Shown in pieces: positions 38,504-60,454 of a DNA stretch of 64,000 nucleotides. A program made the translations under genes and the position numbers. Within the stretch, counting starts at the first letter, position 1, and each line of letters opens with the position of its first letter. The notes beneath the pieces are model-generated. The model did no database searches, was not told where the DNA came from, and worked only from the letters and a program-made list of their open reading frames with translations. The DNA comes from Tubulanus polymorphus (Eukaryota > Nemertea > Palaeonemertea > Tubulaniformes > Tubulanidae): contig NC_134034.1 in the NCBI RefSeq assembly GCF_964204645.1, positions 4,498,072-4,562,071 of the forward strand, written 5' to 3'.

Positions 38504-38509
38504 ATTGCT
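38504..38509 (+). other. Left target-site duplication of Polinton (ATTGCT)
   Basis: ATTGCT directly precedes the left terminus and is repeated exactly at 60449-60454. A 6-bp duplication is the Polinton/Maverick norm. Confidence 0.92.
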
Positions 38510-38999
38510 AGTAATAGGGGTAATGGGCTTTCAGGCCAAAGGTCGAAGGGTCGAGCTCATTAAAAAACAAAACATTAAAAGTAATTTAAAACTATAATAT
38601 ATTTTCATAACCGTGTGCATTTTATATTATAACTAAATATTCATTCTAAGATATCAATAATTTAAATTTTAAAAGCATATTGTATTAAATCAATTGGTCG
38701 CTCCACTTCGCTACCGCTCCGCTCCGCGACCAATTGATTTATTTACAATACACAAATTCATATAATCAAATATATTTTAATAATAATTATTATTCTATTA
38801 TTCAACTGAAATGCACACGGTTATGAAAATATATTATAGTTTTAAATTACTTTTAATATTTGTTTTTAATGAACTCGACCATTCAACCTTTAACCTGAAA
38901 GCCTATTACCCCTATTACTCTTAAAATAATCATACATGAATACATGTATTCATTATACATGAATAACATTTAAATTGACAGATTATTCAATATAAAAGT
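38510..38999 (+). repeat. Left terminal inverted repeat of Polinton, internally palindromic
   Basis: It matches the right end (59981-60448) as an inverse complement, apart from an extra 22 bp near 38,935. The outer 410 bp is itself an inverted repeat: arm 38510-38622 pairs with 38809-38919, so the terminal word AGTAATAGGGGTAAT recurs inverted at 38905-38919. In the centre a 15-bp stem (38687-38701 with 38726-38740, AAATCAATTGGTCGC) holds a GC-rich 24-nt loop. Confidence 0.92.
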
Positions 39000-39014: not shown

Positions 39015-39146
39015 TATTTCAATATTTATATTTGTATGAGTTAGATTTTTAAACATTAAAAGTGTTAGTAAAGTGTGATTGAAATAATACATGATATAAA
39101 TCATTGAACTTCTAAAATCAATTTTAATAAAAAATTTAGTATTAAA
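39015..39146 (+). promoter_or_regulatory. Upstream regulatory block and early-type start module of polymerase gene
   Basis: About 75 bp (39015-39089, ATTTCAATATTTATATTTG and onward) is nearly identical to 56228-56300 upstream of the HNH gene. It is followed by a TTTTAATAAAAAATTTAG block and ATTAAAATG. Sharing by two replication/nuclease genes suggests a common promoter or enhancer. Confidence 0.65.
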
Positions 39147-42100
39147 ATGGAAGCAAATAAGTACTACTGCCCAACATGTAATATCAATATAGATAAATCC
39201 CAAAAAGCAAGACACAATAAAACTAAAACACATTTAGAGAATAAATTGAAACTAGAATATAAAGATGATATATTAGAAACTAAATTAGATGAATTAAAGA
39301 ATGAAAAAGAAACATACAAATGTGATACATGTAATCAATCATTCAGTGATAAAAGATATTATAAAGAACATTTAAAATCTAAAAGTCATATTAGAAATAA
39401 GAATAATGATATTTTAGGTGAAGATTATTTTTATAAAGATAATAATAAGAAACAGAAGACAATTAAAAGCATAAAAAATAAATTAAACATGGATGGATGT
39501 AAGAAATTATATTAATTCATTGGATAATAAAAAAAGATATAGAGATAACCGAAGCATTTAAAAGTGATATTGGCCCAGCAGCTATCGAGTTTAAATTTCA
39601 TAAAGGTAAAACATTAGAAGAAAATAAAAAACATTTAGAAAATATGAAAGAAATAATAAAAATAATAACTGATGTTGAATATCCTAAAATTAGTATATCA
39701 GTTAAAGTAAAGTTTATAAAATCTGAAGATAAACCAATATACGATATAAATTCTCATTCACAACATATTATATATAAACAACACATAGATGATAAATTAG
39801 ATAAATGTTATAATGAAGTAAAAACTAAAATAGAAGAGAAATATTTTGAAGGATCTGGTTTAATATTTGATGAAATAATATTTATGACTTTACATGTTTA
39901 TAACACAAAATATAATAAGTTAACTAAATCAAAACCAATCGATGAAAATAATGTATCATATTATAAAGAACCAGATATTGAAGCATCGAGCTATATTAAA
40001 CTACCATTTAAAACTAATGCTGTAATAAATGTACAAAATGAAGATGATAAATGTTTTCTATGGACAATTATAAGTTGTTTACACCCAGTTGAAGATTATA
40101 ATAAACATACTTATAGATTAACAAATTATAAACAATTTGAAAATAATTATAAGATAGATAAGTATCCTGTTCTAATTAAAAACATCCCAAAAATAGAAAG
40201 AGATAATAATATAAAGATAAATGTATTTGATTTAATCAAATTGCCAAATACAAAAGGTAACAACATAAAACATTATACATTAGAACCTTTATATCTATCA
40301 AAAGATTATGATTCAAAAGATGTTATAGATATACTATATTATGAGAATCATTATATGTGGATTAAACAAATCGATTTATTTTTTAAATCAGAAAGTGATC
40401 ACCATAAAATATATCTTTGTAGAAAATGTTTACATAGATTCAGTAATGAAAGTACATTATTAAATCATAAACAATTATGTGAAAATCATGATTATTGTAA
40501 ATTAGTTTTACCAAATGAAAAGGATAACATATTAGAATTCAAAAAATATGATTACAAAAATAAAGTTCCATTTGTTATATGTGGAGATTTTGAATCATTA
40601 AATAAAGAATTAACTGATCAAGATAGAAAAGAAATATATTATAAAAGAAAGAAATTAAATTCTAATGAAAATGATTTTTCAGATGAACCACCAATAACAA
40701 ATACTATTAAAAAGATTCATCAATCAGCTGCAGCTTTCGGGTTATATATAAAATCTGATTATCCAGAACTAATTGAAAGTGAATATTATGATTATAGAAA
40801 TGAAAATGTTATCAATCATTTTTGTGACTTATTAATTGAATATGAAATAAGATTTAGTAAATTATTGAATACAAATATAGAAATTATAATGACAGAAGAA
40901 GATAAAGAAGAATTTGCATTTGCAGATAAATGTTATTATTGTGAAAAGATATTTAATTATAAAGATAAAAAAGTAAGAGACCATGATCATTTGAATGGAA
41001 AGTTTAGAGGCGCTGCGCATGAGAATTGTAATTTACAAGCTAAGAAAATTAATTTTGTACCAGTTATATTTCATAATCTATCAGGATATGATGCACATTT
41101 ATTCATCAAACAGTTATGCCATAAAATAGAAGAAATTAATAATGAAATAGAAAGATTAAATTCAAATAGATCAAAAGATAAAATACCAACTTATAAATTT
41201 AGAATGTTAGCTAAAACATCTGAGAATTATATATCATTCCAATTTGGGTGTTTAAGATTTATAGATTCTTATAGATTTTTAAATAGTTCATTATATAACT
41301 TATCAAAATCATTAGTTGATGAATTAAAATTATTAAAACAACATTACCCAAATAATGATGATTTTCAATTAATGAGATATAAAGGAGCAATTCCATATCC
41401 ATTTTATAAATCACAATGATTTCAATATAACTGAATTATTGAAAGAACAATTCTATGATGAATTAAAAAATGAATATGTTAAAGATGAAGTATATAATAG
41501 AACATTGAATATTTGGAATCATTTCAAAATAGAAAATCATGGACAATTAGTAGATTTATATCTAAAATCAGATGTATTATTATTAACCGATATATTCGAA
41601 AGGTTTAGAGATGTAAACCTAAATATTTTAACATTGATCCTTGTCATTGTTATTCTAGTCCAGGTTTAACATAGGATTGTGGATTAAAATTTACAGATAT
41701 AAAAATGGATTTGTTAACAAATATAGATCAATTATTATTATTTGAAAAATCTATAAGAGGAGGAGTTTCAGGTGTATTAGGGGATAGATATTTCAATGTA
41801 AATGATAACCCTGGATATAAGTTATTATATATAGATGCAAATAATTTGTATGGTTGGGCAATGATGGAACCACTACCTTATGGAGTATTTGAAATAAGTG
41901 AAGTTTTACAGAATGAGAATAATGATAAATTTGATTGGAAGAAAAGAATTCTAGATATTGCAGATGATTCAGATACTGGTTACTTCTTTGTTGTAGATTT
42001 AGAATATCCTGATGATGAAAAATTTAAATCTAGAAATCTAGCTCACTGTCCCGAACATAAAACTCTAACTCATGAAGAATTATCAAATTACCAAAAAAGA

Positions 42101-43175: not shown

Positions 43176-43199
43176 TTTTAATAAAAATATGTATTATAA
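43176..43199 (+). promoter_or_regulatory. Early-type start module
   Basis: TTTTAATAAAAATATG then TATTATAA immediately precedes the ATG at 43200. It is nearly the same as the blocks before 39147, 55049 and 56374. Confidence 0.6.
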
Positions 43200-43553
43200 A
43201 TGGAGAGTAAACAAACACACAGTGAGAACAACAAATCATTTCTAGATAGAATAAAAGATACTACAAATGTAAAATCTGTAGATTATAAATTCAAAAAGTG
43301 AACAGAATTAACAATTCATAAGAAATATCTAATTACAAATATCGATACAGTTACTAATAACTATGGAGATAAATTAGTTATACACTTAGAATATGAAGGA
43401 TTAAAAGGAAATACATATAAATTCAGAACATATTTACCAGATAGATTTCATAGATTATCAAGTGAAGATTTAGAAGAATTATGTTCTGGAGATTTCTATT
43501 TCGTATACAAAGGTAAGAATGAAAAAGGTCACCATGAAATAGATTTCGAATAA
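43200..43553 (+). pseudogene. Small Polinton protein, 117 codons with in-frame TGA
   Basis: One reading frame runs from an ATG to TAA at 43551, interrupted only by TGA at 43299-43301. The product is mixed charged at the start (MESKQTHSENNKSFLDRIKD) and then alternates short beta-like stretches (YLITNIDTV, KLVIHLEYEG, YKFRTYLP, DFYFVYKG). An OB-fold or other small beta-barrel is possible, for example an ssDNA-binding protein beside the polymerase, but that is speculation. Its early-type module and position suggest a replication role. Confidence 0.55.
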
Positions 43554-43567
43554 AATATGTAAAATAA

Positions 43568-44325
43568 ATGGTGGAATTAAAAGAATACAGAATATTTGTT
43601 GATTCAAGAAAACTTACAAATTATAAATCTCATAATTTACTAGTACAATTAGATAGAGAATTCAAGAATTGTGTAGATTTAAAATTAGTTAATATAAGTT
43701 TATGTAATTCTTTTTACAATATATCGAATAAAACTATTGAAGATAATACTTAATTCATATTAGAAATGTAAATAAATGGTTTAATCTAATTTTAAAACCA
43801 GGATTATATAATTTAGAAACATTAGCTCAAGAAATTAATAGAAGAGCACGGTTGAAAATTAGAAGAGAAGATAAATTTTTAATTAGATTTATAAAAAGTT
43901 ATAAAAAGTACAAATAAATTAAAATAAAGTTACATGATGAAAGTCAACATGCATTTATGGTAAAAAAACCTAAAGCTAAACTGTTAGGAATTGTACCAGA
44001 TACTGTTACAGGAAACGTAGATGGTAATTCAAATATAATACCTTACACACACTTTTATATTTATTGCAATTTAATCGAGCCTACAAAAACATTCGAAGCA
44101 ACTAAAGATGCAATTTGTAATTCTAGTATATTAAATATTTTACCATCAAAAAATGTTAAACAATTTGGAACTCAAATAAATTATAATTTAACAGAATGTG
44201 ATTTCAAACCTTGTATTCCACATTTCAATAATTTTAAATTAGAAATAAGAAATCATAATGCTTATTTAATTGATTTGAATAACTTTCCAGTGATATATGA
44301 ATTAGTTATGAGATGTAAAGAGTAA
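43568..44325 (+). pseudogene. Minor capsid (penton)-like protein, broken
   Basis: The N-terminal segment (EYRIFVDSRKLTNYKSHNLL, VDLKLVNISLCNSFYNIS) and the following blocks (LILKPGLYNLETLAQEINR; KAKLLGIVPDTVTG) follow the pattern of Polinton penton-type single-jelly-roll proteins. In those, a valine-rich strand ending NSFYN and an LLG motif are typical. The C-terminus ends VIYELVMRCKE. A TAA at 43751-43753 and frame changes between 43,752 and 43,957 destroy it. Assignment is from remembered family pattern, not alignment. It sits upstream of the small structural genes. Confidence 0.6.
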
Positions 44326-44341
44326 TTTTTTCACTATATAA
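44326..44341 (+). promoter_or_regulatory. Late-type start module (T6, 10 nt, ATG)
   Basis: TTTTTTCACTATATAA runs straight into the ATG at 44342. Same design as six other gene starts in this element. Confidence 0.65.
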
Positions 44342-44698
44342 ATGAATATAACTGTTGGGCCGAGTATATGTTTTGGGTTTGATTTTAAACATGAGATAGA
44401 AATGAAATTTAACATTAATGATGTAATTACACATATCAAAAATATTGCATTTTCTAATGAAACAACATTTGAGTATGAAACAACAATAGATAAAGAAACT
44501 TTAAATGTAGAAAAGATTACTAATTTAATTAGAGAATCTTTAAGATTTTATGAATTAGATGAAGATTTTATCATCGATGATATTAAAAAAATAATCATTG
44601 AAATATATACAAATGAAACTAGTAATGAAATAAATGTTGAATTAATCGTAAATAAGTTAACTAAATATTTTGATGATAGTAATTTTTTTGATAAATAA
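44342..44698 (+). CDS. Uncharacterised Polinton protein, 118 aa, intact
   Basis: The frame is intact and preceded by a late-type start module. The start MNITVGPSICFGFDFKHEIE is followed by an acidic helical region (ITNLIRESLRFYELDEDFII, KIIIEIYTNETSNEINVELI) ending NFFDK. No membrane segment, Cys cluster or known motif is seen. The T-run of the next gene's start module lies inside its last codons. A structural or assembly role is inferred only from the module and position. Confidence 0.6.
   Translation: MNITVGPSICFGFDFKHEIEMKFNINDVITHIKNIAFSNETTFEYETTIDKETLNVEKITNLIRESLRFYELDEDFIIDDIKKIIIEIYTNETSNEINVELIVNKLTKYFDDSNFFDK
44683..44698 (+). promoter_or_regulatory. Late-type start module (T7, 9 nt, ATG)
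   Basis: TTTTTTTGATAAATAA precedes ATG at 44699. It is embedded in the end of the upstream coding region. Confidence 0.65.
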
Positions 44699-44920
44699 AT
44701 GAGTGATAATAAGTGGATAATAACTGGATAATATAATGGCGCATTACTATCAGTTGGAAGTTTTGGTTATTCAATGGTATTAAAAAAAGTATTTAAAATG
44801 GGAAGTGTTAATGTTGATAGATTTGATATAAATGATATTTTAAAATTAACGTTAGCAGTTACTTTATCTAATTAAACTATTGATTACTTAGAAAAACAAA
44901 AATATATTCCTCCTATATAA
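44699..44920 (+). pseudogene. Small hydrophobic Polinton protein, two in-frame TAA
   Basis: A single frame reads MSDNKWIITG, stop, then YNGALLSVGSFGYSMVLKKV (a membrane-like stretch), DRFDINDILKLTLAVTLSN, stop, TIDYLEKQKYIPPI. The continuity of frame and sense across both stops shows a recently decayed gene of about 73 codons. Small membrane-active virion proteins are common in this part of Polintons; the exact family is not named. Confidence 0.6.
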
Positions 44921-44932
44921 ATGCGTAATTAT

Positions 44933-44944
44933 TTTACTAAATAA
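44933..44944 (+). promoter_or_regulatory. Short late-type start module (T4, 8 nt, ATG)
   Basis: TTTTACTAAATAA precedes ATG at 44945. The T-run is shorter than elsewhere; the TAAATAAATG ending is the same. Confidence 0.5.
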
Positions 44945-45320
44945 ATGGCTTCTGCAGTTATAACTATTATAGGATCGGCAATTGTTAACGCTTTAGCATT
45001 TACTGGTGGTGGTTATTTATTTAAGCATATTGATAAAAATGGATCATAAACAGAACAAAAAAGACATAACTTAGCATTAGAGAAATACAATAAAGCAGCG
45101 GAAGAATATAGAGAAAAAAGACAAAACTATATGGATTATATTAACAAGGAATTATATGATCAGAAGATTTCACATAGAGATTTTCAATCAGTTGATGATG
45201 CAATGAGTTTATATAACGCAGTAACCAATAAAGAAAAATTACATCTATAAAAACCTAAATTATCAGATTATTATACCCCAAGTAAAGAACAACAGAAATA
45301 TGAAAATATAGCTGCAAAGC
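44945..45320 (+). pseudogene. Polinton membrane protein, 5' part of a gene split by an insertion
   Basis: A hydrophobic N-terminus (ASAVITIIGSAIVNALAFTG) is followed by a charged coiled-coil-like region (HNLALEKYNKAAEEYREKRQ, NKELYDQKISHRDFQSVDDA) and a LSDYYTPSKEQQKYE block, a layout recurring in Polintons. In-frame TAA codons fall after DKNGS (45047-45049) and after KLHL (45248-45250). The reading frame is then cut by foreign DNA at about 45,321. Its C-terminal membrane segment resumes at 50,893. Confidence 0.72.
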
Positions 45321-46234
45321 AGCGATGACGGGTTTTCTGTAAAGCCATTCAGAATGATGGGAATTATAGTAAATTGAAATATCGATACATAGAATAAAAT
45401 GCATTGACAGATTCGAACCTAATATGCAACCACTGTGTAAACGTCAAATATGATTCAGCTTTGAAACCGAACATACGTGGACGTACAATCACAAATATTA
45501 ATATATTTGACCAGGCACTTATTTTGGCATTCAAACATCATGATACTGTATTATCACCATCCTTAAAAATGGATCTGTCCTATTAAGAACTCATCTTAAG
45601 CACCTGCTGATAGATTGAGTGAATTCACAGATAAGAACGTATTATGATTTAGAATAGATTAGATTTAAGAAGTTAATGTTTTTATTGAAATATTTGAATA
45701 AATACATATATTGTAGTGTAGATTCAATCAATAAATTATGAATTGATTTGGTCTGGGTTTCCGGCTGATGTTGATTTTGGCTTTTATGGATTACAAAATC
45801 TACAGTGATAAACAATTGATACCTGCAACATGTGTGTAAATCAAACCTATTCCACTAGTTGCGTGTGTTTCCTAATAAACGGGAGAGTCACTCTTGATCT
45901 GAGTTATTAGAACTGGGGGTCCAGGGACACCATGCCCACTTGGGAAGTGGTTCCAAATGCTCAACAATCTAACAATTCAGGTATCAAAGGTATAACACAT
46001 CCCTTTTCAAAGAATACCCATCACAAATTGCAATGAGAAATGGCAAACTCAGAATTCGGGCCAAAATTGACATTTTTGGGCACTAAAAAAGGTCATAGGA
46101 CGGCCATCTTGAGTCCGTATCCCAATTTTATGCTGCAAAGTTATGCTGATGGGCCCAGGGGCATTCACATATATCCGAAAGATCAAGGTAATTGATCAAA
46201 GCATCTTCAAAATTTCCCTCAAAAAGTTCAAAAA

Positions 46235-48222
46235 TATGGAAGACCTCAGACGACATACGAGATATGAGATATAACATACGAGATATGAGATGCAACATAC
46301 GAGATACGACATATGACATACGAGATACGACTTATTTACAGTACGGGTGTCCGTCCGCTAGCGCCACCGCAGTGTATATTTTTCAACATCTACTCGGCGT
46401 ATACTACGACACGTGCGCAGGCAGTGGCGTATACATTAACTATGAATATCAATACGCGAAAAACGTTTCATTTGAAACTAAAAATATTTAAAGATATTCG
46501 ATCAACCACTCCCGGGGACCGGCTTCTCGCTGTGACGTCAGTGGGCCACTCTTAGTGTGAGACACCGATGGTCCGGTGATTCGAGTTGGCTCACGGGGCT
46601 ACAGCCCCTAAATCCACCAAAAACGCGTCAAATTCCATTTTTGAGTGTACAAAAATCCCTCAAAAAGAGTTAGCCACGGCCCTTCAAATTGGTGGTCATT
46701 AAGAATTGCGCCTAGTCAAGGGTTTAAACTCCGCGTTCGATCGAGGGTTTTCGATGAAGAATGAAAGATGTATGTATATTACGAATGCCGATGACCAAAG
46801 AGTCTTAAAAAAAGTCCGACACACGCGGAATCTGTTTAGAGTACTATGATTTCAACGAATGAATTGAAACATGGACATGAATTAAAAATACTAAAGATAT
46901 CATAAATTTATTGAATGAATTATTCATTAAATCATTATCAGAATGGAGTTCCATTGTATCACTCTCAGCTCCTGGCCCTAGTCCAGCTGATTCGTTTATC
47001 ACGACCATTTTTGCGACGGGTGCAAACGCACCATACGAGCAACGTTCCGGTGTTCCGCTAATTCCCTGTCTAAAGAAATGTTACTTGATATTTCCATGGA
47101 TCTCTTATCTTTACAAATGTAAGAGCTGTTGTGTTTTGCTGAAGACTTATTTATGTGGTTCCTGTACTTTTGTCAATAAACAGTTTTAAAACTGGCCATG
47201 ACAATTGATAAGAATGATCTTAAATTGGATTCTCCGATTATGAAAGTTATTCAGATTCAGCCATTGGCCCTTTTCATGAAAGATGTCAGAAAAGAAAGAT
47301 AGCCAAAAAGCACTCAGAATACACAAGTACCTAAATTGAACAAATTTTCAGGGGAGGACCCCAGACTATGGCTTCAGAAAGACAGTACCGCATACTGCCC
47401 TGGCGGTTAGCGAAAACTGGCCAGTCTCGACTCTCAATGGCTGGTCTAGTGGACTCACCAGTCTGCCCCAGTAGCTCGATAGGGATGGAATTTAGCTGGG
47501 GATTTCAAACCTTGAGAGAGAGCACGGGAGTTCTTAATCTGGATACCAGGGCGATGTACGGGTTCCCAGGTTGTTTGGGATTCAAGAACTCAGGCAGGGG
47601 TGTCAAACAGCGGAGGAGGGGTACAAGGGGGCCGGGATTTCCGGCTGCGGAATTTTTTTAGAATTTTGATTTCTGATGCAGAAAAGCAGGCGGTTACGGC
47701 GGGCGGTGAACAGTAGTTATTTTTTCTGCAGGCATTGAGTAACCGGAACCCCGGCTCCTGAACACCAGGCCGTTTTAAGACCAAAGGAAGACAAGAAATA
47801 GCATAATATTATGAACTTGAACAGTTTGATATCTTTTTAGTTTTGTGATTTGAAAAACTTTTCGTCGCCCGCGGGAGAAGAACGGCCGGCGGCGCGCCTA
47901 GTCCAGGGTGTTCACAGTATGGCCTAATATCGTTGTGTCCGGTCCAGGTGTCCATTATCCAAAAGAAATCTATTTCTGGTTTGAATAAAATGTTGACTAT
48001 GTTGGTTTTCATATAATTGACGATGACTGTACGCGTCACCATGTTAAACGATTTATATGCAGTAAATATTGAAAAAACATACACTGCGGTGGCGCCAGCG
48101 GACGGACACCCGTACTGTAAATAAGTCGTATCTCGTATGTCATTATGTCGTATCTCGTATGTTGCATCTCATATCTCGTATGTTATATCTCATATCTTGT
48201 ATGTCGTCTGAGGTCTTCCATA
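46235..48222. mobile_element. Foldback element with about 140-bp arms and 6-bp TSD
   Basis: The arms begin TATGGAAGACCTCAGACGAC and carry several TACGAGATA or TATGAGATA subrepeats, then TTATTTACAGTACGGGTGTC. The right arm is the inverse complement. CAAAAA flanks both ends (46229-46234 and 48223-48228). The 1.7-kb interior has no recognisable gene. Superfamily unknown; flanking DNA on both sides resembles an older repeat containing GACGGACGAAAAG. Confidence 0.82.
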
Positions 48223-49737
48223 CAAAAATGTGTAAAAAGTGTTGATTTTGGCGAACAACAATGGCTGCCAGTCGGCCATCTTGATTCTGACAGGGCCAGT
48301 TTTTGAGCTGAAGATGTGTCTAGGGTAGATACACGTGAAACCCAAATATCAAGACATTACATTGAAGCGTCTTCAAAACTTCCTGAAATAACTGATTTCC
48401 GTCTACGGACGGACGACGGACGAAAAGTGAACGCAATAGCTAAAGTCCCAAGTGGGCTAAAAATAATGTTCATTTAGTCATAGAAATTCATTGCCTTTTT
48501 GGAGTTTCTGTAATAATATTTGTTCTGCCCCAATTTTTATTACTGTATGAACCAATGATATGCTTTGTAAATATGATGTAATAAAATAAATTTGAATTAA
48601 ATTTGAACATGAGAATCAAGCATAACTTGTGTTTTTTCAACTTGTCTTACTTGTCTTTTGTTAACAGTTCCAGAGTTTCAATTACAATCAAATCCAAATT
48701 GGCTAAAAAGTGCATAGGACTAATTGAAATGAACGGTTAGTTACTGCAAACCTATTCCAGTGTTATGTCGATCGTGTTGAATCACTTTCCTTGAGTTGAA
48801 AGAATCAGATCTTCTATGGTACAACATCAGTCATCTTGGTGTTGACTGTCCTTGACCATCTAACTTTATGCGTTTGACATTGGAATTTAGCATCATACCC
48901 ATTTGAACTGCAAAATATTCATACAACATGAAACCCAACAGTACATGTATACAGTATTAATCAAACTTTCACCGATGTTGGATATTTGAATGAACATTAG
49001 GTTTATTTCAGTACTCTAAAGCAGGAAATAATAAGCCCAATCAATAGGCCCTATTCCCATTGGATCAATTATATAATGCGTACAGCTGTACCGTACACTT
49101 ATCAGTCAAGAATGGAGAAGTCGGTATACCAAACCTACGAACAGCAAAATGTACAGGCCTACAATGATTTCTGGTAATACAAGCCGTGACCACATGAACG
49201 TTTTGGTTTGACTATTAATGTCAGCAGGTCAGAGAAGGCCTGGCCAAACTTAATCACAAGGCTCAAATCAATTAGCCTTTCTGCGTGTGAATATTTCACT
49301 GTATTGTTTTAAAAATAGGCCTATCGAGTGAATTAGTACATAGACTGAATTAGACTTTAGGCTAGTCCTGACCAAATCCTATCCATATTATAATGGCACC
49401 AGTTATAGTAACATCACTGTAGCGCCGACGAGAGGGAAAAAGTTGTGTTTGTAGTACATAGGCATGGTAGGCTTGTCGTACTCACTTAATACTTAAAACG
49501 CTGTTGTTACCTGTACGTGACTGTACGGTGATTTCTACAGGTTAGCCATATGTGAGTACGTTGACGCTCAGACTTGCAATATTGGGATTCGAAACCAAAC
49601 GAAAAAAAATCCAGTAGTAGTCCAGTGATTTACCCACTGTAACGTAACTGGTGGGTGGATGAAATTTGATTTACAAATAGCCTAGCCTCACCTAACCCAA
49701 ACTCTATTCTTTTACGCATGCGCGTTTGCAGATTATA

Positions 49738-50076
49738 GGAACTCACGTACAGCGTTTTTAGGGAACTCACGTACGGTTAACCTGTGGATATCACCGTACA
49801 GTCACGTACGCGTTACAATTTCGTACTTAAAATGGTATTGGCTACTAGGAACTCACGTACGGCGTAAGTAGGGAACTCACGTATGGTTAACCTGTGGATA
49901 TCACCGTACAGTCACGTACGCGTTACAGTTTCGTACATAAAATGGTATTGGCTACTAGGAACTCACGTATGGCATTATAGACTTAGTAGGGACCTCCGGT
50001 ACGCGGTTAACCTGTGGAGATCACCGTACAGTCACGTGCGGTTAACAACTACGTACTTAAAATGGCATTGGCTTCT
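49738..50076 (+). repeat. Three tandem repeats of about 110 bp
   Basis: Each unit contains GGAACTCACGTA, GGTTAACCTGTGGATATCAC, CGTACAGTCACGTACG and AAAATGGTATTGGCTACTA. Starts are near 49738, 49848 and 49957. A diverged inverse copy (CTGTACGGTGATTTCTACAG) lies near 49,520. The plus-strand open frame here simply translates the repeat. Confidence 0.88.
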
Positions 50077-50892
50077 ATATAATAGGCCTATAGACAAATA
50101 AATACCGGTAGGCTTTCTTATAATCTTAGCTTCCACAATTCACAACCGAACCAACTGACCAACCAGTATATTTAGTCCCAGTACGCACCAACCGGCACAG
50201 GCCTAACACTGTTTGTCAACTGTGTGTACCGTTGTAGGCTATCGATAATCACCTGATACTTTTCTGTCGTTTGTTTTCTCTCTGAGACGAACACGACCGT
50301 AATTCTAGTAGCCTTCCGCGACTCAACGACCTTGATTCAAACTTGATCAATTCAAAGTCTGTTTATTGACGCTTTTGGTTACATGAACTGATCAGCAATA
50401 TACTTAAATAAAACAACCGGAATAACAAGAAATCAAAAACATTAACGAGGTAACAAACAAATGTCCGTAAACCTGTCAGACACGCGAACGCCGGACTCGT
50501 AAACTCTTGGACTCGGACCCGCTGAGCAATAAATTCATAAAATTGACTTTGAAATTGATTGTGGAGAAGAGAGGGAATTATTCGATAGCTCTTCCTCGAA
50601 AAGAAGAGAGAAATATCGGTATGAAAACACAACATGGCTACTAATTGAATGGAGCCAAATTTCCGATGTTTACGGCTCGACAGTGCCTTTATAACGTAGA
50701 TTTATCAAAATTCCCATGCAGTATCTGGAGATTGAAGTGAGCTGAAGGATATCATACGGATTGTATCGGCGACAGCGGTAAGGTAAGGAAGCCTTTACAC
50801 TTTTAACAAAAACTATGTGAAAAAGGGAAAAAAAAAAAAAATAATAATCACGCGAATTTCAATAGGGTTTTCTGTGAAGAAACAGAAAACCC

Positions 50893-50957
50893 TAATAATA
50901 TGGATTTTAGGTGGAACTGTTATTGTTATATTTGTAGAGTATAGGTTTACTAATTAG
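50893..50957 (+). pseudogene. 3' part of the split Polinton membrane protein
   Basis: Immediately after the insertion the plus strand reads WILGGTVIVIFVEYRFTN then TAG. This is a single membrane segment suited to the C-terminus of the gene truncated at 45,320. The next late-type start module begins four bases later. Confidence 0.6.
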
Positions 50958-50960
50958 TAA

Positions 50961-50977
50961 TTTTTTTTGCTAAATAA
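50961..50977 (+). promoter_or_regulatory. Late-type start module (T8, 9 nt, ATG)
   Basis: TTTTTTTTGCTAAATAA precedes ATG at 50978. Confidence 0.68.
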
Positions 50978-51404
50978 ATGGATGATAATATTGATATTAT
51001 TCCTCATGATATAAATAAAACTAAATTAAAAACATATTTAGAAAAACAAATATTAGAATTTGAAAGTGACATAAAGATTAAAAAGAAAAAATATTTAAAA
51101 AGTAAAATTATATATTATTTGATTATAAGTGGTTCGGTTACAATTAGTTCTGTAATAACATTTCTAGCAATATTCAGTCCATTAACACCTTTAGCTATAT
51201 CAATTGGTGTATTAGGATTAAGTTCAAGTGTATTAACTGGTATAAGTTCAAAATTAAATATAAAAAGTAATAAACAAAAAAATTAAAACTAATATAAAAG
51301 AAATTAATAAATTAAAGAATACACTAGATTATATAATAAGTTTAAATGGTCATATAACAGTTAAAGAACAAGATAAATTATTAAAAGAATTAATAAATTA
51401 TTAA
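50978..51404 (+). pseudogene. Polinton two-segment membrane protein, one frameshift
   Basis: An N-terminal charged helix (LKTYLEKQILEFESDIKIKK) is followed by two hydrophobic stretches (YYLIISGSVTISSVITFLAI; LTPLAISIGVLGLSSSVLTG) and a basic tail. The frame ends early at 51286 in an A-run (near 51,275-51,286). The alternative frame continues with INKLKNTLDYIISLNGHITV to TAA at 51402. So a one-base slip in a homopolymer broke a protein of about 140 residues. Probably a virion or host-membrane protein; no named family. Confidence 0.65.
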
Positions 51405-51420
51405 TTTTTTTATTATATAA
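51405..51420 (+). promoter_or_regulatory. Late-type start module (T7, 9 nt, ATG)
   Basis: TTTTTTTATTATATAA precedes ATG at 51421. Confidence 0.68.
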
Positions 51421-52507
51421 ATGGTAGATAGTTTTCCAAAAGCTTTCCAATATAATAAATCAATTAAATATAATATTCCAGCAATAGATTTTAATAAAGA
51501 TATTTCATATAGAAATGAAGTTTTAAATTCATTAATTGATTTATATATTTATGTTACTGAAAGTAATAATTTTCATGTAAAGATGGAAAATATATTTCAT
51601 GTGAATACAATTAATTTCAAAAATTTAAATGAGGCAAAACAATGGTTATTAAAATCTAATATGAAGTATTGGCAGAACCAATTAAATTTTGCTGTTTATT
51701 GCGCAACAACAGGATGTGGAATTAGTTGGAATGATCATTTAAATAAACCAAGTTTACCACTGATGTTATCACTTTTTAGATTTCATACTTATTTTCAAAT
51801 AAAATTAATATTAGATGAATTAGAATGTCCTTTACCAGGTTCTTTACCAGACTTATTTTAAAGAATTGAATAATAATATTAATTTTTCTAAGTTTTATAA
51901 AATATGTAATGAATTAAATATTAATTCAAATAAAGATTTTAGATCAAAAATTGGAACAATGGGTGGATTAGGAATATTGTATACTAAACAATTTGGAAAA
52001 ATAATAACAAATTCAGATATAAGAACACTAAACTGGAATGAATTACCAAAATATTATAATAATATACAACAACGAAACAATAATGGTTGGGTTAATTTCA
52101 TTTTAGAAAATAGTGAAGGTTTTACTAAAGCTGGAATACAAATAATAAATCAATCTATTAGAACTTATTTGATATGGATTTTAGGTGCACAAGTTGAAAC
52201 AAGATCCCCAATAATTGGAAATGATAACACTTCATTCGATGCGCAGAAACAATTCAAAGTATTATTTTTTATTTCAATTCATAATGATAAAAATAGATCG
52301 ATTCCAGAAAACATTGTAAGATATCAAAATTATTTAGATAAATCACATATTAGATTAAATTATTGTATAGGCCCTAATCTATTAATTATTTCTAATGATT
52401 TAGTATTAAAGATGGGAAATATAATTGGTTATAATAATCTAATTAAAACTGCAACAATAAATAATTCATTTGGATTGAATGATATAGATAAAAAGATTAA
52501 AAAATAA
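51421..52507 (+). pseudogene. Conserved Polinton structural-type protein, one frameshift
   Basis: About 360 residues in two frames, joined near 51,855-51,862. The first ends LECPLPGSLPDLF and the second resumes with LNNNINFSKFYKICNELNIN. Marker stretches are FAVYCATTGCGISWNDHL, SLFRFHTYFQIKLILDEL, INQSIRTYLIWILGAQVETR followed by SPIIGNDNTSFDAQKQF, and YCIGPNLLIISNDLVLKMGN. I recognise this as a family repeatedly found in metazoan Polintons, probably a virion component, but cannot assign it to PX, PY or another named protein. The stop TAA overlaps the ATG of the next gene (TAATG). Confidence 0.75.
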
Positions 52508-52743
52508 TGGAAGGTGAAAAAAATAAAAAACACATTCAATCAACTGAAACTAAAACTAATAATATTAAATTAAATAATGATTCTAAAATGAAAGATTACA
52601 ATACATCAGAAAATATAAAAACTGATAATATTCAACATGAAATAATTAAACTAAATGATGATAATAAATCCCATGAAAATACTAAATTAGCTTTAACTTG
52701 TATAGGAATTGTAATCGGAGGAATATTATATTTTAAATTTTAA
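52507..52743 (+). CDS. Small tail-anchored membrane protein, 78 aa, intact
   Basis: A very Lys/Asn/Asp-rich soluble part ends in a single C-terminal membrane segment (ALTCIGIVIGGILYFKF). The start overlaps the stop of the upstream gene by one base, so it is translationally coupled or shares its transcript, and it lacks its own T-run module. Layout resembles the degraded protein at 57.9-58.2 kb. No family named. Confidence 0.6.
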   Translation: MEGEKNKKHIQSTETKTNNIKLNNDSKMKDYNTSENIKTDNIQHEIIKLNDDNKSHENTKLALTCIGIVIGGILYFKF

Positions 52744-52759
52744 TTTTTTTATTATGTAA
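52744..52759 (+). promoter_or_regulatory. Late-type start module (T7, 9 nt, ATG)
   Basis: TTTTTTTATTATGTAA precedes ATG at 52760. Confidence 0.68.
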
Positions 52760-53750
52760 ATGGCAGAAGGTGGAGAAGATATTCCATTGGATCCTTTAGA
52801 TGAACCCGGTATAAGTGATGAACAACAACCTGATTTTGATGAAACAAGTTTTAGTAATGATAATAAATCAGAATATAATACTAATTTAGGTGAAGATGAT
52901 GATTATTACCATTTAAAAATCCATTTAAAAATCCAAATCCTACTGACGTTGATCCAGAAACATCGAGAAGAGATATTCAACAAATTGATAATGATTCAAG
53001 TCAATTACAATTAACATTTGAAAAAAAAATTGATAGATTAAGAGATTCAGAAGAAGAGATGAATAGTACTGGAATAAATCGAATACTATCTTTACTAGAA
53101 AAAGGATTACTTGATTTAACTGATGAAGAATTAAAAGAATTTCCCGAACCAGCATGTAGAGAAATTAAAGGTATTTAAGAATCATCTGATGATATTGCTA
53201 ATATTAAGATGAGATTTTATAAAGAACCATCTTAGAAAAAGAATTAGCTAATGCAGATAAAGAATTAAAACAATTAGAATTAAATAGAGATCATCAAGTA
53301 GTTTATGAAGCTGATTTTGAAAGCAGAAATTTAGCTTTAGTAAAAAAAATAGATGATTTAGAATATAACATAGAATTACAAAAAAAGAAGAAAGAGATAC
53401 ATTATTAAAATCATATGATCTTAATCATATTAAAAAATTAAAAGTTATTTTTAAAGATTTGTTGATAAAACCAAATTTTAAAATATCATTAAAAGATAGA
53501 ATAAAATTATTATTTAAACTAGAAGGTATATAATTCTTTCAATTCTAACAGCTGTAACTATGGTATTTACAACAATAGGTTTAGCAATATCAAATGCTTT
53601 GAAATCTACTCCTACTCCCAATAAACCAGATAAACCCCCGAATGATAATAATTCTATACAAGATAAAGTTAAGGACATATTATTTTATTTTTAATTACAG
53701 TTGTAAGTGCTATTATTTTTGGGCTAGTAAACATGATAAAAAATGAATAA
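52760..53750 (+). pseudogene. Polinton coiled-coil/membrane structural protein, multiply broken
   Basis: An acidic N-terminus (EDIPLDPLDEPGISDEQQPD) is followed, in shifting frames, by coiled-coil segments (LQLTFEKKIDRLRDSEEEMN; LEKELANADKELKQLELNR; ALVKKIDDLEYNIELQKK). A C-terminal hydrophobic/Pro-rich part follows (ILTAVTMVFTTIGLAISNAL, then TPTPNKPDKPPNDNN). This architecture recurs in Polintons beside the capsid gene. Stops occur at 53012, about 53,176 and 53,233, with frameshifts between. The end is uncertain because the last segment is degraded. Confidence 0.65.
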
Positions 53751-53754
53751 TTAA

Positions 53755-53770
53755 TTTTTTTGTTAAATAA
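53755..53770 (+). promoter_or_regulatory. Late-type start module of the major capsid gene (T7, 9 nt, ATG)
   Basis: TTTTTTTGTTAAATAA precedes ATG at 53771. It is the same pattern as six other modules in the element. Confidence 0.7.
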
Positions 53771-55016
53771 ATGAGTGGGAGTTATATCAATCCTTCTAAG
53801 AATAATAGAATATCTAATGCTATTAAAGCAGAAAGATCACATCATATAATTACTCATAACCCTTCTAATATTAATCCCGATGAAACTTTATATGTTAGAA
53901 TTCCTAGATTAACACAAAATACTTTTTATGTTCCAAATAGTATTTATTTATCAGCCGATATAAAAGTAATCGGTAATAATAATAATTATGTTGTTGATAA
54001 TGTTGGAAGATATTCGATTAAAAAGTTAACTATAAAGATTGGTCCAGAAACAGTTTTCTCATTAGATGATTATAATTTATTTATGCATTATAAAGATTTA
54101 TGGTTAACTAAAGAAAATAGAAATAATATGATATTTCAAGGCATCCAATCAGAAAACCAAAATAAATTAAGATGAGAAGCACATAATGCAATATTAACTA
54201 ATTCTATAGATAAATTGATAAAAAGTATATATGGAAGCAAATATAAAATTCCATTAGACTTTGAATTGATAAATAACAATGCACCTTTATATAAATACGC
54301 AATTCAAGAAGACGTTATATTCGAAATAACATTTGCTCCTGTAAATGAAATTGTAATATCTAGCGTTAATAAAGATATGAGTAAAATTATCGAATATATG
54401 TTTAGAATATGACACAGTAACTGATGAAAATATTTCAAGTATAATTCAAACTAAATACAATCAAGGATTTTCATTATAATATGATTATATTGATAAATTT
54501 AAAACCGTAACTATTAATGCAAATGATGAAATTATTAATGAGAATATTAACTTCCCAAGAAGATCTATTAAAGGCATACTAATATTTTTTACCATTGCAA
54601 CATATACTAATGGCGCAATAAATGTTGATAATTATTATAATCCTGAAATAACAAAAGTAGAAATAACTATCGAAGGAATAGCAAATAAAATATTTTGTCA
54701 AGGAATGAAAATGATTGATCAGTGGCCAGAAATTAGAAAACATTTTATGAATGAAAAAGTAAAATCATCTGAAAATTGTAACATTAATCAAATTGATCAT
54801 TATACCGGTAATAAATATGCATTATGGTTAGATTTTAGAACAACAGAGGATAATTCATTACATGGATCTGGAAAAAAATTACAAAACACTAAAGATGGAA
54901 TACAATTATTCATGACAAAGAATAAAGGAATCAAAAATTTTAAAATGCACATTTATGTTATATCTGACGCACAATTAAATATTGTAAATTCGCAATTAGA
55001 TAGTGTTATGTATTAA
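53771..55016 (+). pseudogene. Polinton major capsid protein (double jelly roll), broken
   Basis: This would form the hexon-like capsomers of a Polinton virion. Recognisable blocks are DETLYVRIPRLTQNTFYVPN, VDNVGRYSIKKLTIKIGPET, KYKIPLDFELINNN, INENINFPRRSIKGILIFFT and, near the end, DHYTGNKYALWLDFRT, DNSLHGSGKKLQNTKDGIQ and VISDAQLNIVNSQLDSV. The last three are strong signatures of metazoan Polinton capsids. Length (about 415 codons) is normal. It is disrupted by TGA at 54173-54175, a frame change before 54,412 and TAA at 54477-54479, so no capsid can be made from this copy. Confidence 0.88.
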
Positions 55017-55024
55017 AATTTTAA

Positions 55025-55048
55025 CTTTAATAAAAATATATATAATAA
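55025..55048 (+). promoter_or_regulatory. Early-type start module
   Basis: CTTTAATAAAAATATATA then TAATAA precedes ATG at 55049, near-identical to the module at 56374. Confidence 0.65.
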
Positions 55049-55881
55049 ATGGAAGGTGGTAAAGTATATAAACATATTCCATATATCGATACACATGAAA
55101 ATAATGATGGTTTATATTATGTAATACCTTGTAATATAGCTTCGATATTTGATCCTATTTTCAAAATTTATGAAACTAAACTAATAGAAATCGATAATAA
55201 TAAAAGTGAAGTTGTTGATAATTTGAGTAATGTAATTGATAATAATGTAATACATTCTACATCTAATAATGTAATACCTTCTACATCTAATAATGTAATA
55301 CCTTCTACATCTAATAATGTAATACCTACTACATCTAATAATGTAATACCTTCTACATCTAATAATGAAATAATATTAAATGTTAGTGAAAATAGAAATT
55401 ATTGTGGATATTGTAAAGGTGAATATTCAAACGTTCCATCAAATTGGAATAAACATATGAATACAAATTCACATATTACTAATGTAATATATCGTGTTGG
55501 TATAAGAGAATTTATAGAACACCCATTTAGATATGTTACAAAGTTTGTTTCAAATCAAAAAGTAAATGGTGAAAAAATATATGAAGATTTATTATTAGCA
55601 ACACCTAATAAAGATGAATTAGATATAACCGATGCTAATGAAATATTAGGATCAAACACTGTAAATGAAATATTAGGAGCAAACACTAATAAAGATTCTA
55701 TAAAACATAAAGTAGAAAATAATGATAAATTTGATTGGATGAATAAGCATAACAATGAAACAACTATTGACGATGCGGTAAAAAAGGTGCAAAATAAGTA
55801 TAAAATAATAGAGAATTTGAAGAAGAAAATTCGGTAGAGAATTTGAATAAATTGTTAGGGTCTGATGATGAAAGTGATTAA
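55049..55881 (+). CDS. Single zinc-finger protein with NNVIPSTS repeats, C-terminus possibly shifted
   Basis: The N-terminus contains YYVIPCNIASIFDP, followed by five 8-residue repeats (NNVIPSTS type), then one U1/C2H2-like finger (CGYCKGEYSNVPSNWNKH, H) and a charged C-terminus with two NEILG motifs. The open frame stops at 55837. A one-base shift nearby would add VENLNKLLGSDDESD to TAA at 55879-55881, an acidic tail looking original. The early-type module suggests expression with the polymerase. It may bind nucleic acid; no named family. Confidence 0.6.
55241..55360 (+). repeat. Five tandem 24-bp coding repeats
   Basis: Units AATAATGTAATACC followed by TTCTACATCT (small variants) encode the NNVIPSTS octapeptide. 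The multiple-of-three period keeps the frame. Confidence 0.95.
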
Positions 55882-56211: not shown

Positions 56212-56227
56212 GGTATATTTTAAACAT

Positions 56228-56373
56228 ATTTCAATATTTATATTTGTATGAGTTAGATTTTTAAACATTAAAAGTGTTAGTAAAGTTTTATTGAAATAAT
56301 TCATATATATTCATGAATAACATATAAATGAATAACTTCTAAAATCAATTTAGTAAAAAAATATATATAATAA
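56228..56373 (+). promoter_or_regulatory. Duplicated regulatory block and early-type start module of HNH gene
   Basis: 56228-56300 repeats the block upstream of the polymerase gene (39015-39089). It ends in TTTAGTAAAAAAATATATA then TAATAA before ATG at 56374. Confidence 0.68.
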
Positions 56374-57027
56374 ATGGAACCAGAACAACCACAAATTATC
56401 AATTTTACAAATAACGCTGGTGCTATAAACATATACTACAAAAAGTGTTCTAAGTGTGAATTAGATAAATTAGCTTTAACAGAATTTAGTAAGCGTAAGA
56501 TTAGCAAAGATTGTTTTCAATATTGCTGTAAAACTTGTACTAAACTATATACCAAACAATATCGAGAAGATAATAGAGAAGCTTATAATGATTATATGAC
56601 AGAATATATGAGAGAAAGATATCAAACAGATCTTAATTTTAGATTGAAACAATGCTTAAGATCTAGATTAACACAATTATTCAACAAAGAAACACATTCA
56701 GAAACACTATCTAATTTATTGGGTTGTTCAGATGAATTTTTCATTTCATGGATAATATATCAATTCGATGATAAAATGAATATAGATAATTATGGTGAAT
56801 ACTTTCATATTGATCATGTGTTACCAATATCTAAATTTAACATGAATGATGAATACAATAAAAAACTTATTTGGGGTTGGAAAAATTTAAGGCCTTTAGA
56901 AAAGAAGGAAAACATAATTAAATCTAATAAACTAGATTTACAGTTATATTTAGATCAACTGGATAAAGCAAAGACATTTGTTGAATTATGGAATTCAACA
57001 CATAATGAAAAATACGTTGAATGTTAA
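56374..57027 (+). CDS. HNH endonuclease, 217 aa, intact
   Basis: Four Cys near the N-terminus (CSKCELDK ... CCKTC) form a probable zinc site, followed by YTKQYREDNREAYNDYM and a linker (FRLKQCLRSRLTQLF, LLGCSDEFFISWIIYQFD). The catalytic region is YFHIDHVLPISKF ... WKNLRPLEKKENIIKSNK: the His-Asp-His and Asn positions of an HNH/ββα-metal nuclease are present. Similar proteins occur in giant viruses, polinton-like viruses and Polintons. It is the longest unbroken gene in the element, with its own early-type promoter block. Whether it serves replication, recombination or self-propagation is unknown. Confidence 0.85.
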   Translation: MEPEQPQIINFTNNAGAINIYYKKCSKCELDKLALTEFSKRKISKDCFQYCCKTCTKLYTKQYREDNREAYNDYMTEYMRERYQTDLNFRLKQCLRSRLTQLFNKETHSETLSNLLGCSDEFFISWIIYQFDDKMNIDNYGEYFHIDHVLPISKFNMNDEYNKKLIWGWKNLRPLEKKENIIKSNKLDLQLYLDQLDKAKTFVELWNSTHNEKYVEC

Positions 57028-58237: not shown

Positions 58238-59346
58238 ATGAAAAAAGAACAATATTTAATAGTTATATAATAACCCAGAAAGTGAAGTATCATATTCTAA
58301 CGTTACAGAATTATGGGGTAAAATTAAATCTGATAAGGAAAATGGCGCCATACGGCACCCACATGGTGGTATAAAATATAGTGAATTGAAATCATGGTTA
58401 CAAAATCAACCAACATATCAAATCCACAAGAAAATGGATAAAACTTATTTAACAAGAAAAGTTATGGTTTCATATATCGATCAACAATGTCAAGCAGATT
58501 TAAATGACATGAAGAACTTAGAAGAATACAACAAAGGATATTTCTGGATACTGAATGTTATAGATATATTCAGTAGATACGCATGGTCAATTCCAATCAA
58601 AAATAAAACTGGAATAGAAGTAACAAATGCTTTTAAATCTATATTTAAAGAAGCTATTCCAGATAAGATACAATTTGATGAAGGTAAGGAATTCTATAAC
58701 AAACATTTTAAAAAACTATTATCTGATAACGATGTAGATTATTTTTCAACACACTCAGATAAAAAAGCATATATTATAGAAAGATTTAATAAAACATTGA
58801 AAACTAGAATGTGGAAATATTTTACTGCTAATGAAACATAAATATATCGATGTATTAGATGATTTAGTGAAAGGTTTTAATAATTCTAAACATAGTTCTA
58901 TAAATATGAAACCTATACAAGCTAGAAAAGAAGATAATTCGGAAATAGTTTGGAATAATTTATATGGCGCATTTGTTACACATGATTTTGGAGAACCTAA
59001 ATTTAAAATAGGACAACACGTAAGAATATCTAAATATAGAAAAACATTTTATAAAGGTTATACCCCTAATTTTACAAAAGAAATATTCAAGATTAAAAAG
59101 ATAATATTAACTAAACCTTTTGTTTATAAACTAGAAGATCTAAAAGATGAAGAAATATTAGGTTATTTCTATGAACAAGAATTATCACTTGTACCAAATC
59201 CAGACGAAATAGAATACAAAATAGAAAAAGTATTGAAAACAAAAACTCTTAAAGGAAAAAAGTATTCTTTGGTGAAATATAAAGGATATCATGATAAATT
59301 TAATGAATGGATTTTATCTAGTAAAATTAAAAGAATAAATGAATAA
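58238..59346 (+). pseudogene. Polinton integrase with chromodomain, broken
   Basis: A retroviral-type integrase that would insert the element. The N-terminal block (LYNNPESEVS ... KSWLQNQPTYQIHKK) leads to the catalytic core with QADLNDMKNL (first D, 58495), IQFDEGKEFYNKHF (second D, 58676) and AYIIERFNKTLKTRMW (E, 58777), near the D-35-E spacing. FKIGQHVRISKYRKTFYKGY is an SH3-like fold. A chromodomain ends it (YKIEKVLKTK, YSLVKYKGYHDKFNEWI). A frame change after the putative ATG (58238-58265) and another near 58,840 break it. The stop overlaps the ATPase start. Confidence 0.9.
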
Positions 59347-59949
59347 AGATTTATTTATATTTGAACCGGATAATATGTTAGTTACTAGAGTAACCAATTG
59401 TGGTAAAACACATTTCATATTAGATTTGTTAGAAACTATTTATAAGAATCATTTTGATAATATAATATTATTCTGTCCTACTTATGAAATGAATAAAACA
59501 TATAATAGAGATTTAGTTAAGATAAAAAAGTTTATTATATTCAATCCTAAAACAGTAAAAGAAAATTTAGATAATTGTATAAAATAGCAATTGATACTTA
59601 TAAAGGATCAAATACATTATTCATTATAGATGATTGCGCAAATTTACATGATTCAAAAGTTAGAGAAAGTGAGTTATGTTATCTAGCTTTCTCTGGGAGA
59701 CATTTTGGGATAACAACATGGGTTTTAAATCAAAAATATAATTCAATTGTTAAAGACTTTAGGGAGAATATAAGATTTCTAGTTTTATTTTATAACAAAG
59801 ATAAAAAATCTATGCAACAATGATTGGAAGAAAATCAAATTATACCCACTGAATTACATGATGAATATATGAATAAATTAAAGAATAATAAAGGTTCAAA
59901 ATTATTACTGAGATTACAATTTCCATATGAATATAAATTTATTAAATAA
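59339..59949 (+). pseudogene. FtsK/A32-type packaging ATPase, broken and Walker-A altered
   Basis: The Polinton genome-packaging ATPase would pump DNA into capsids. The Walker A region reads RVTNCGKTHFILDLL, where the family's first glycine is Arg. Walker B is intact (TLFIIDDCANLHD), followed by the family motif LAFSGRHFGITTWVLNQKY. The frame changes near 59,580, and TGA at 59821-59823 cuts off the last 40 codons (LPTE-like segment, LRLQFPYEYKF). The ATG overlaps the integrase stop by eight bases within AATAAATGAATAA. Confidence 0.85.
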
Positions 59950-59980: not shown

Positions 59981-60448
59981 CTTTTATATTGAATAATGTG
60001 TCAATTTAAATGTTATTCATGTATATGATTATTTTAAGAGTAATAGGGGTAATAGGCTTTCAGGTTAAAGGTTGAATGGTCGAGTTCATAAAAAACAAAT
60101 ATTAGAAGTAATTTAAAACTATAATATATTTTCATAACCGAGTGCATTTCAGTTGAATAATAGAATAATTATTATAATTAAAATATATTTGATTATATGA
60201 ATTTGTGTATTGTAAATAAATCAATTGGTCGCGGAGCGGAGCGGTAGCGAAGTGAAGCGACCAATTGATTTAATACAATATGCTTTTAAAATTTAAATTA
60301 TTGATATCTTAGAATAAATATTTAGTTATAATATAAAATGCACACGGTTATGAAAATATATTATAGTTTTAAATTACTTTTAATGTTTTGTTTTTTAATG
60401 AGCTCGACCCTTCGACCTTTGGCCTGAAAGCCCATTACCCCTATTACT
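59981..60448 (-). repeat. Right terminal inverted repeat of Polinton
   Basis: Inverse complement of the left repeat. The outer 410 bp (60039-60448) is again palindromic, with the terminal word at both edges and the same 15-bp stem around a GC-rich loop. The loop differs from the left one by about one base. Confidence 0.92.
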
Positions 60449-60454
60449 ATTGCT
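60449..60454 (+). other. Right target-site duplication of Polinton (ATTGCT)
   Basis: Exact repeat of 38504-38509. Confidence 0.92.

Follow-up and report, generated by a model that had tools for sequence, protein, structure and literature searches.

A candidate poxvirus-type core promoter at gene starts of Polintons in the nemertean Tubulanus polymorphus

Vaccinia late promoters are composed of a T-containing core, a spacer of 5-7 bp and a TAAAT(G/A) element that overlaps the start and leaves no 5´ untranslated region (PMC5294985, in excerpt). The late promoters of African swine fever virus (ASFV) are bipartite and A/T-rich, with the second element at the start (same excerpt). Among smaller elements, the promoters of mavirus and of endogenous mavirus-like elements (EMALEs) match giant-virus late promoters (PMC8547959, in part), and the cytoplasmic linear plasmids of yeast (virus-like elements, VLEs) carry a short, poxvirus-like near-start element with a TAAAA-type initiator (an excerpt of PMC6211774). 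Homologs of VLTF2 and VLTF3 are described as not detectable outside Nucleocytoviricota in the excerpted part of PMC11253617, and partial accounts report VLTF3 without an RNA polymerase in mriyaviruses (PMC11253617), CpV-BQ1 (PMC12085832) and medusavirus (PMC8400408). In the open-licence literature of PubMed Central (PMC), we found no account of Polinton transcription, of promoters of the kind described below or of VLTF3 in a Polinton. Here, we describe a recurrent start module in a Polinton from Tubulanus polymorphus, which lies in a 64,000-nt stretch of contig NC_134034.1 (positions 4,498,072 to 4,562,071, hereafter the window), and compare it with related copies in the 267.8 Mb of genome searched.

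Seven genes of this element, which are named here by their first residues, begin with the same module (Table 1). All seven copies start with TAATT, continue into a T-run and a short spacer, and finish with TAAATG. The original prediction had listed seven pairs of T-run and ATG, and every one is present where it was placed and reads as described. The run ends 10 nt before the ATG at the first site (44342) and 9 nt before it at the other six; the corresponding distances to the last TAAATG are 7 nt and 6 nt. None of the seven modules contains an AG between the run and the ATG, and the MSDNK module sits within coding sequence, at the 3´ end of the open reading frame before it (ORF; 44342-44698). 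The T core, the spacer and the TAAAT at the start codon resemble the vaccinia late promoter (excerpt of PMC5294985), and this layout is observed at 7/7 window sites and, with a distance of 6-7 nt, in 67 of 70 capsid gene copies. The promoter-like character proposed by the original prediction is therefore upheld in the sense of a repeated, position-locked module with a published layout. Certain discrepancies with the known systems are apparent. The Polinton core is a single T-run preceded by TAA, compared with ~20 bp in poxviruses; its carrier is a Polinton in which the scanned ORFs gave no match to an RNA polymerase, a PolB gene of a sister subfamily also bears the module, and a leaderless start is here a prediction. 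The ASFV elements are TATTT and TATATA, versus T7 and TAAAT in the Polinton. Mavirus, the EMALEs and other virophages likewise have a recurrent promoter-like motif upstream of genes in a small Polinton relative (PMC8547959, in part), but that motif in mavirus and the EMALEs is TCTA and is linked to a known giant virus, whereas no helper is known here. In VLEs, the RNA polymerase is encoded by the element itself and the near-start motif is of early type, ATNTGA, in contrast to the T-run of the Polinton.

The module is specific to gene starts. Among 13 genes listed in this analysis, which omits the integrase because its start is unclear in the window, a run of T5 or more ends 9-10 nt before the ATG at 6/13 starts and at 0/366 other plus-strand ATGs (p=4e-10). 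The start at 44945 (TTATTTT) fails the T5 rule and is the seventh module, outside these six. In the 14,658 nt of element sequence scanned for runs and words, all plus-strand T-runs of at least 7 (5/5) and all plus-strand TAATTTTTT words (6/6) lie within modules. The word provides a weaker control, as the minus strand has three copies of it and 500 shuffles gave a maximum of 6, equal to the observed number. The form TTTTT, 4-9 nt, TAAATG gives 18 overlapping matches on the plus strand and 3 on the minus strand (shuffle mean 0.42, maximum 8). A scan of the window with up to 3 mismatches, using a pattern derived from the sites themselves, returns 8 matches, which are the seven modules and one further site, and 0/100 shuffles reach 8 (mean 2.18, maximum 6). 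Genome-wide, a strict 22-mer, which fits 3/7 window sites exactly, occurs 2,320 times (1245+1075), and its reversed form occurs 0 times. A pattern with one base missing gave no matches. The loose form discriminates poorly: T6, 8-11 nt, ATG is found 12 times on the plus strand versus 14 on the minus strand of the element (shuffle mean 1.98), and T6, 9 nt, ATG occurs 20,050 times in the genome versus 11,147 for its reverse. Because the loose form is unspecific in both the strand and the genome controls, the signal is the full module. Avoidance of T-runs elsewhere was not used as terminator evidence, since A6 is likewise depleted (56 versus a shuffle mean of 95).

The layout recurs among copies of the capsid gene. 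When the genome was searched with the N-terminal part of the capsid protein, 150 places out of 1,257 candidates were scored, and identity is 96-100% among the matches listed. The top 70 by protein score, including the window copy, were chosen blind to their upstream sequence. A single copy lacks a T5 run, 66/70 have their last TAAAT 6 nt past the run, and the last 15 nt before the ATG are identical in 64/70. The 38 nt at -60 to -23 fall into 54 haplotypes in an ungapped comparison, in which indels inflate the count. Variants shared between copies are observed at 0/19 core sites versus 13/38 sites at -60 to -23 (p=0.0026).

A second class of gene start was observed in the window. An A-run of 5-7 that ends exactly 12 nt before the ATG is present at 4/13 genes and 2/366 other ATGs (p=1.2e-5). 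All 31 tabulated MEGGK starts have an A-run, whose distance to the ATG is 12 nt in 24 of them and 11 nt in the other 7. PolB and MEPEQ each have one copy of a 78-nt direct repeat upstream (window 39015-39092 and 56227-56304, 96% identical), so the A-module represents at most three independent cases; the arrangement looks as though a promoter region was copied. The MEGGK coding region also contains a 24-nt tandem repeat (window 55216-55396). The window T class consists of the capsid gene and six neighbours, PolB and accessory genes carry the A-module, and the ATPase and MVELK genes carry neither. TAAATG is found at 12/13 window gene starts in every class; it therefore does not define the T class by itself, and alone it may be a translational context. 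A third form, judged by eye, was noted at integrase/ATPase starts of the sister subfamily (the tail of L036 and L044:510), which read roughly AAAATTAA, two purines, ATATATAAATG, with no T-run.

This sister subfamily, whose PolB pieces are 59-70% identical to the window PolB, separates the distance to TAAAT from the distance to the ATG. MVELK lacks a T-run in the subfamily of the window; in the sister subfamily its start reads TAATTTTTTT, 6 nt, TAAAT, and the ATG lies at a distance of 12-13 nt from the end of the run. In a tabulation of 12 MVELK starts, the first TAAAT lies 6 nt after the run in 6/6 T-run starts (L034, L052, L082, L083, L085, L086), and this form, with at most 1 mismatch, occurs 219 times in the genome (control 0). 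The spacing tracks TAAAT rather than the ATG, which argues for a role in transcription rather than translation, pointing to a module that acts in transcription initiation. The sister PolB start consists of TAATTTTTTT, CCCTAA and TAAATG with a box, CATCACCACAAG, in front (T-module in 2/2 starts), and this form, with at most 2 mismatches, occurs 613 times (control 0). The box also precedes the VLTF3-like gene described below in L086, and the other four VLTF3-like starts examined have T5 and no CATCACCACAAG box. MVGEK, a gene without a tblastn trace in the window, has the T-module in 2/2 starts, and the MGDRK start of L044 shows it in an imperfect form (TTTCTTTT). These sequences suggest a core promoter made of the T-run and TAAAT, with class-specific elements added on top. 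Transcription from poxvirus late promoters begins inside TAAAT, yields a 5´ poly(A) leader, depends on a multisubunit RNA polymerase of viral origin and is limited to post-replicative genes; this last restriction does not hold for the module at the sister PolB. The late class of the original prediction is thus retained in part: T-modules in the window mark the capsid gene and its neighbours, and a strict late class is not upheld because the sister PolB and the VLTF3-like gene bear T-modules. Two further features of the sister PolB were noted. The copy at L084:1621-4326 contains an intein-like stretch (Intein_splicing E=0.0024, under the cut-off) that adjoins the catalytic YFDS motif by eye. 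In addition, a second ORF that has this promoter box and agrees with PolB in its first 40 residues is found in inverted orientation ~17 kb away (L084:1-240 and L088, minus strand), and the sister terminal repeat therefore seems to include the PolB promoter.

The VLTF3-like gene was recovered with the Pfam model PF04947 (Pox_VLTF3), which gives at least 63 matches in the genome, all above the curated cut-off (150 of 228 candidates scored), and 0 matches in 14 control genomes. The neighbourhoods of 34 of the 63 were examined; a divergent MVELK T-module lies within 5 kb of 25 (median 1270 bp) and is absent from 9. The intact gene (L085, L086) encodes 433 aa. Pairs resembling zinc fingers occupy the N-terminal part, followed by a zinc-ribbon-like stretch with CxxC pairs (by eye), at which Pfam reports a zf-U1 match, and the VLTF3 match lies towards the C-terminus. 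C-terminal fragments score 27.5-28.3 bits versus a curated cut-off of 25 (E 1.7e-6 to 3e-6), and the match is found in 0/10 controls (one reversed and nine shuffled versions). The protein is thus similar to VLTF3 of Nucleocytoviricota in its C-terminal match above the cut-off and in the zinc-ribbon-like CxxC pairs that precede it; it differs in that about half of the model is matched, in its extra N-terminal zinc fingers and in its Polinton carrier. A VLTF3 search of three viral records returned none, and the control side gave one match, below the cut-off, in Bacillus subtilis.

The window carries one Polinton, bounded by 426-nt inverted repeats. It has the components that define Polinton/Maverick elements, which are terminal inverted repeats, PolB, a retroviral-type integrase, a packaging ATPase and a capsid protein. 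The matches that identify PolB and the ATPase come from other genomic copies (for the ATPase, Pox_A32 E=1e-11 on an intact copy in L044), and the Chromo match of the integrase (E=4.9e-5) is slightly under the cut-off. The original prediction had regarded the seven genes as virion-type; only the capsid gene can be identified among them, weakly, with a Capsid_N match under the Pfam cut-off. Several window genes are broken. MVELK is broken in the window and open over 252 aa in L049, and MVDSF is in pieces in the window and open over 462 aa in L035. Two inserts, at ~45336-50880 and ~57028-57900 as judged by eye and base composition, interrupt the element. MDVEG (52760-53750) is flanked by two modules, and its copies in L027, L032, L043 and L047 differ in the N-terminal part and in the length that is open; some short copies may be broken. 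On the 32-Mb contig C1, all module matches, among the matches listed, fall within 12.5-20.3 Mb, and Polintons on this contig seem to cluster in a middle stretch.

Table 1. Features of the Polinton in window coordinates. Start counts come from a tabulation in which some loci overlap, so that some copies are counted twice, and in which L031-L060 were chosen by pattern.
Feature	Position	Strand	Details
Left terminal inverted repeat	38509..38934	+	426 nt, 98%
PolB A-module (A6, 12 nt, ATG)	39129..39149	+	ATG 39147
MESKQ A-module (A5, 12 nt, ATG)	43183..43202	+	ATG 43200
MVELK gene	43568..44325	+	no T-run in window copy; T-module in sister subfamily
MNITV T-module and ATG	44323..44344	+	TAATTTTTT (T6), 10 nt, ATG; T5+ in 16/16 starts
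MSDNK T-module (T7) and ATG	44680..44701	+	T5+ in 11/11 starts
MASAI T-module and ATG	44926..44947	+	interrupted run TTATTTT; T5+ in 10/15 starts
MEDKV T-module (T8) and ATG	50958..50980	+	T5+ in 15/15 starts
MVDSF T-module (T7) and ATG	51402..51423	+	T5+ in 15/15 starts
MDVEG T-module (T7) and ATG	52741..52762	+	11/11 starts; gene length differs between copies
Capsid T-module (T7) and ATG	53752..53773	+	42/42 starts; T5+ in 69/70 copies
MEGGK A-module (A5, 12 nt, ATG)	55032..55051	+	ATG 55049
MEPEQ A-module (A7, 12 nt, ATG)	56355..56376	+	ATG 56374
Integrase with chromo domain	58386..59346	+	two ORFs; rve E=1.2e-8
A32-type packaging ATPase	59339..59943, end approximate	+	broken into separate ORFs
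Right terminal inverted repeat	60024..60449	-	pairs with left repeat

From the repetition, spacing and conservation of the modules and from the VLTF3-like gene beside them, we infer a start site, an acting factor, a polymerase and a timing. With confidence that is about evenly balanced, we propose that the module is a poxvirus-type core promoter of this Polinton clade, used by the VLTF3-like factor together with host RNA polymerase II (Pol II). The core promoter would comprise the T-run and, usually 6-7 nt further, the initiator TAAAT, at which transcription would begin. Starts on the ATG or a few bases before it would yield nearly leaderless mRNAs, and the module would work like a late promoter of nucleocytoviruses (poxvirus-type). 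The zinc protein encoded by the sister subfamily may help to recruit RNA polymerase, acting in cis within that subfamily and in trans on window-type elements. In agreement with the original prediction, RNA polymerase has no Pfam match among the subset of ORFs scanned. Because no RNA polymerase gene is seen and VLTF3-bearing viruses without one exist, host Pol II, which has been proposed for such viruses, is the likeliest enzyme, and a helper virus is the second.

A number of observations weigh against this proposal. For the spacing, the L085 MVELK start has a second TAAAT that abuts the ATG, many modules contain a pair of TAAATs that overlap, at 2 nt and at 6 nt past the run, and for MEDKV and MNITV the distance ranges to 5-8 nt at certain starts. 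For the conservation, the segment at -110 to -61 is itself conserved, with shared variants at 2/50 sites, and the comparison of the core with the whole stretch at -110 to -23 gives p=0.068; as the copies are close kin and their conservation is not independent, the evidence for constraint is modest. Capsid relatives have 43-77% identity (P0001-P0053), some of them 70-77%, and alignment searches of IMG/VR and genome contigs found no divergent Polinton DNA with this capsid. Capsid and ATPase alignments confirmed no relatives in IMG/VR. In genome contigs, the capsid alignment gave no match and the ATPase alignment recovered L080, which is the remnant of a Polinton-like element, and the adintovirus-like L081, the latter without the module at four ATG ORF starts examined by eye. 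For the factor, the VLTF3 match spans only positions 83-164 of the 168 in the model, and the two whole 433-aa proteins yield no VLTF3 row in a Pfam scan, which we think is due to the filters of HMMER. No homolog of the 433-aa protein was found among 5.8 billion proteins, and the window has no tblastn match to it. The AlphaFold models of the whole protein and of its C-terminal part are poor (predicted local distance difference test, pLDDT, 44.6 and 51.4), and a PDB fold search with a poor model gave nothing significant. A BFVD search with the second model ranked Pandoravirus macleodensis VLTF3s and an entomopoxvirus late factor 6 and 8 (E 0.26 and 0.34, none significant).

The alternative that survives best, which we consider unlikely, is a virophage-like dependence on a second virus in the same cell, a cytoplasmic giant virus or a poxvirus: the modules would mimic its late promoters, and its RNA polymerase would transcribe the Polinton. 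The poxvirus-like layout is consistent with this idea, as are the scanned ORFs, which lack an RNA polymerase match, and the precedent of mavirus with Cafeteria roenbergensis virus (CroV), given that the promoters of mavirus and the EMALEs correspond to late promoters of giant viruses (PMC8547959, in part). However, no helper was found in a search that covered VLTF3 only, and 25/34 of the VLTF3 matches examined adjoin a Polinton gene start and not a helper, with 9/34 not placed. The strict pattern occurs in 19 viral contigs of IMG/VR with one match each, which we judge to be chance; two of these contigs, L068 and L072, have a common start before an 845-aa ORF.

Next in rank, and also improbable, is that the modules are plain host Pol II signals in a compact, AT-rich element. 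They would combine words similar to TATA or AATAAA with a start context rich in A, and the T-run would be a spacer or the terminator of the preceding gene. This would agree with the TAAATG at 12/13 starts in all classes, which may be a start context, with AATAAA or TATAAA in some modules and with the stop codons of preceding reading frames that overlap modules. It leaves unexplained why many genes that are unrelated to one another keep the run at a fixed distance from TAAAT, mostly 6-7 nt; moreover, one module lies within coding sequence (44680-44698), A-class genes have no T-run, and AATAAA/TATAAA are missing from some modules.

A signal at the level of translation or RNA processing, such as a poly-U tract before the start codon, a trans-splice acceptor or a reinitiation element, is highly improbable. 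U-tracts act in some leaders and the module is near the ATG, yet the run of the sister MVELK holds its distance to TAAAT and not to the ATG. A splice or trans-splice acceptor was rejected, as no AG occurs between the run and the ATG in any tabulated T5+ start. We give least credence to recombination linkers, short identical boundaries retained as an aid to gene swaps between copies: the variable length and content of MDVEG between two modules and the PolB halves that differ between subfamilies would suit them, but they predict neither fixed internal spacing nor strand, the A-modules differ, and such exchange could be a by-product of common promoters.

A broader and more tentative proposal, which we regard as rather doubtful, is that a Polinton lineage has a working late system of the nucleocytovirus type, with a VLTF3 homolog and promoters of poxvirus layout, outside Nucleocytoviricota. 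Such a system could be a relic that dates from about the time when Polintons and giant viruses diverged, or it could have been captured, and window-type elements would borrow the factor in trans. The order of Polinton-like and virophage-like ancestors is debated (PMC10328495, in excerpt), and the link to giant viruses becomes testable with a Polinton that combines a VLTF3-like gene with promoters of matching layout. The 150 scored capsid places in one genome constitute natural variants, and these Polintons may use giant-virus-like gene switching.

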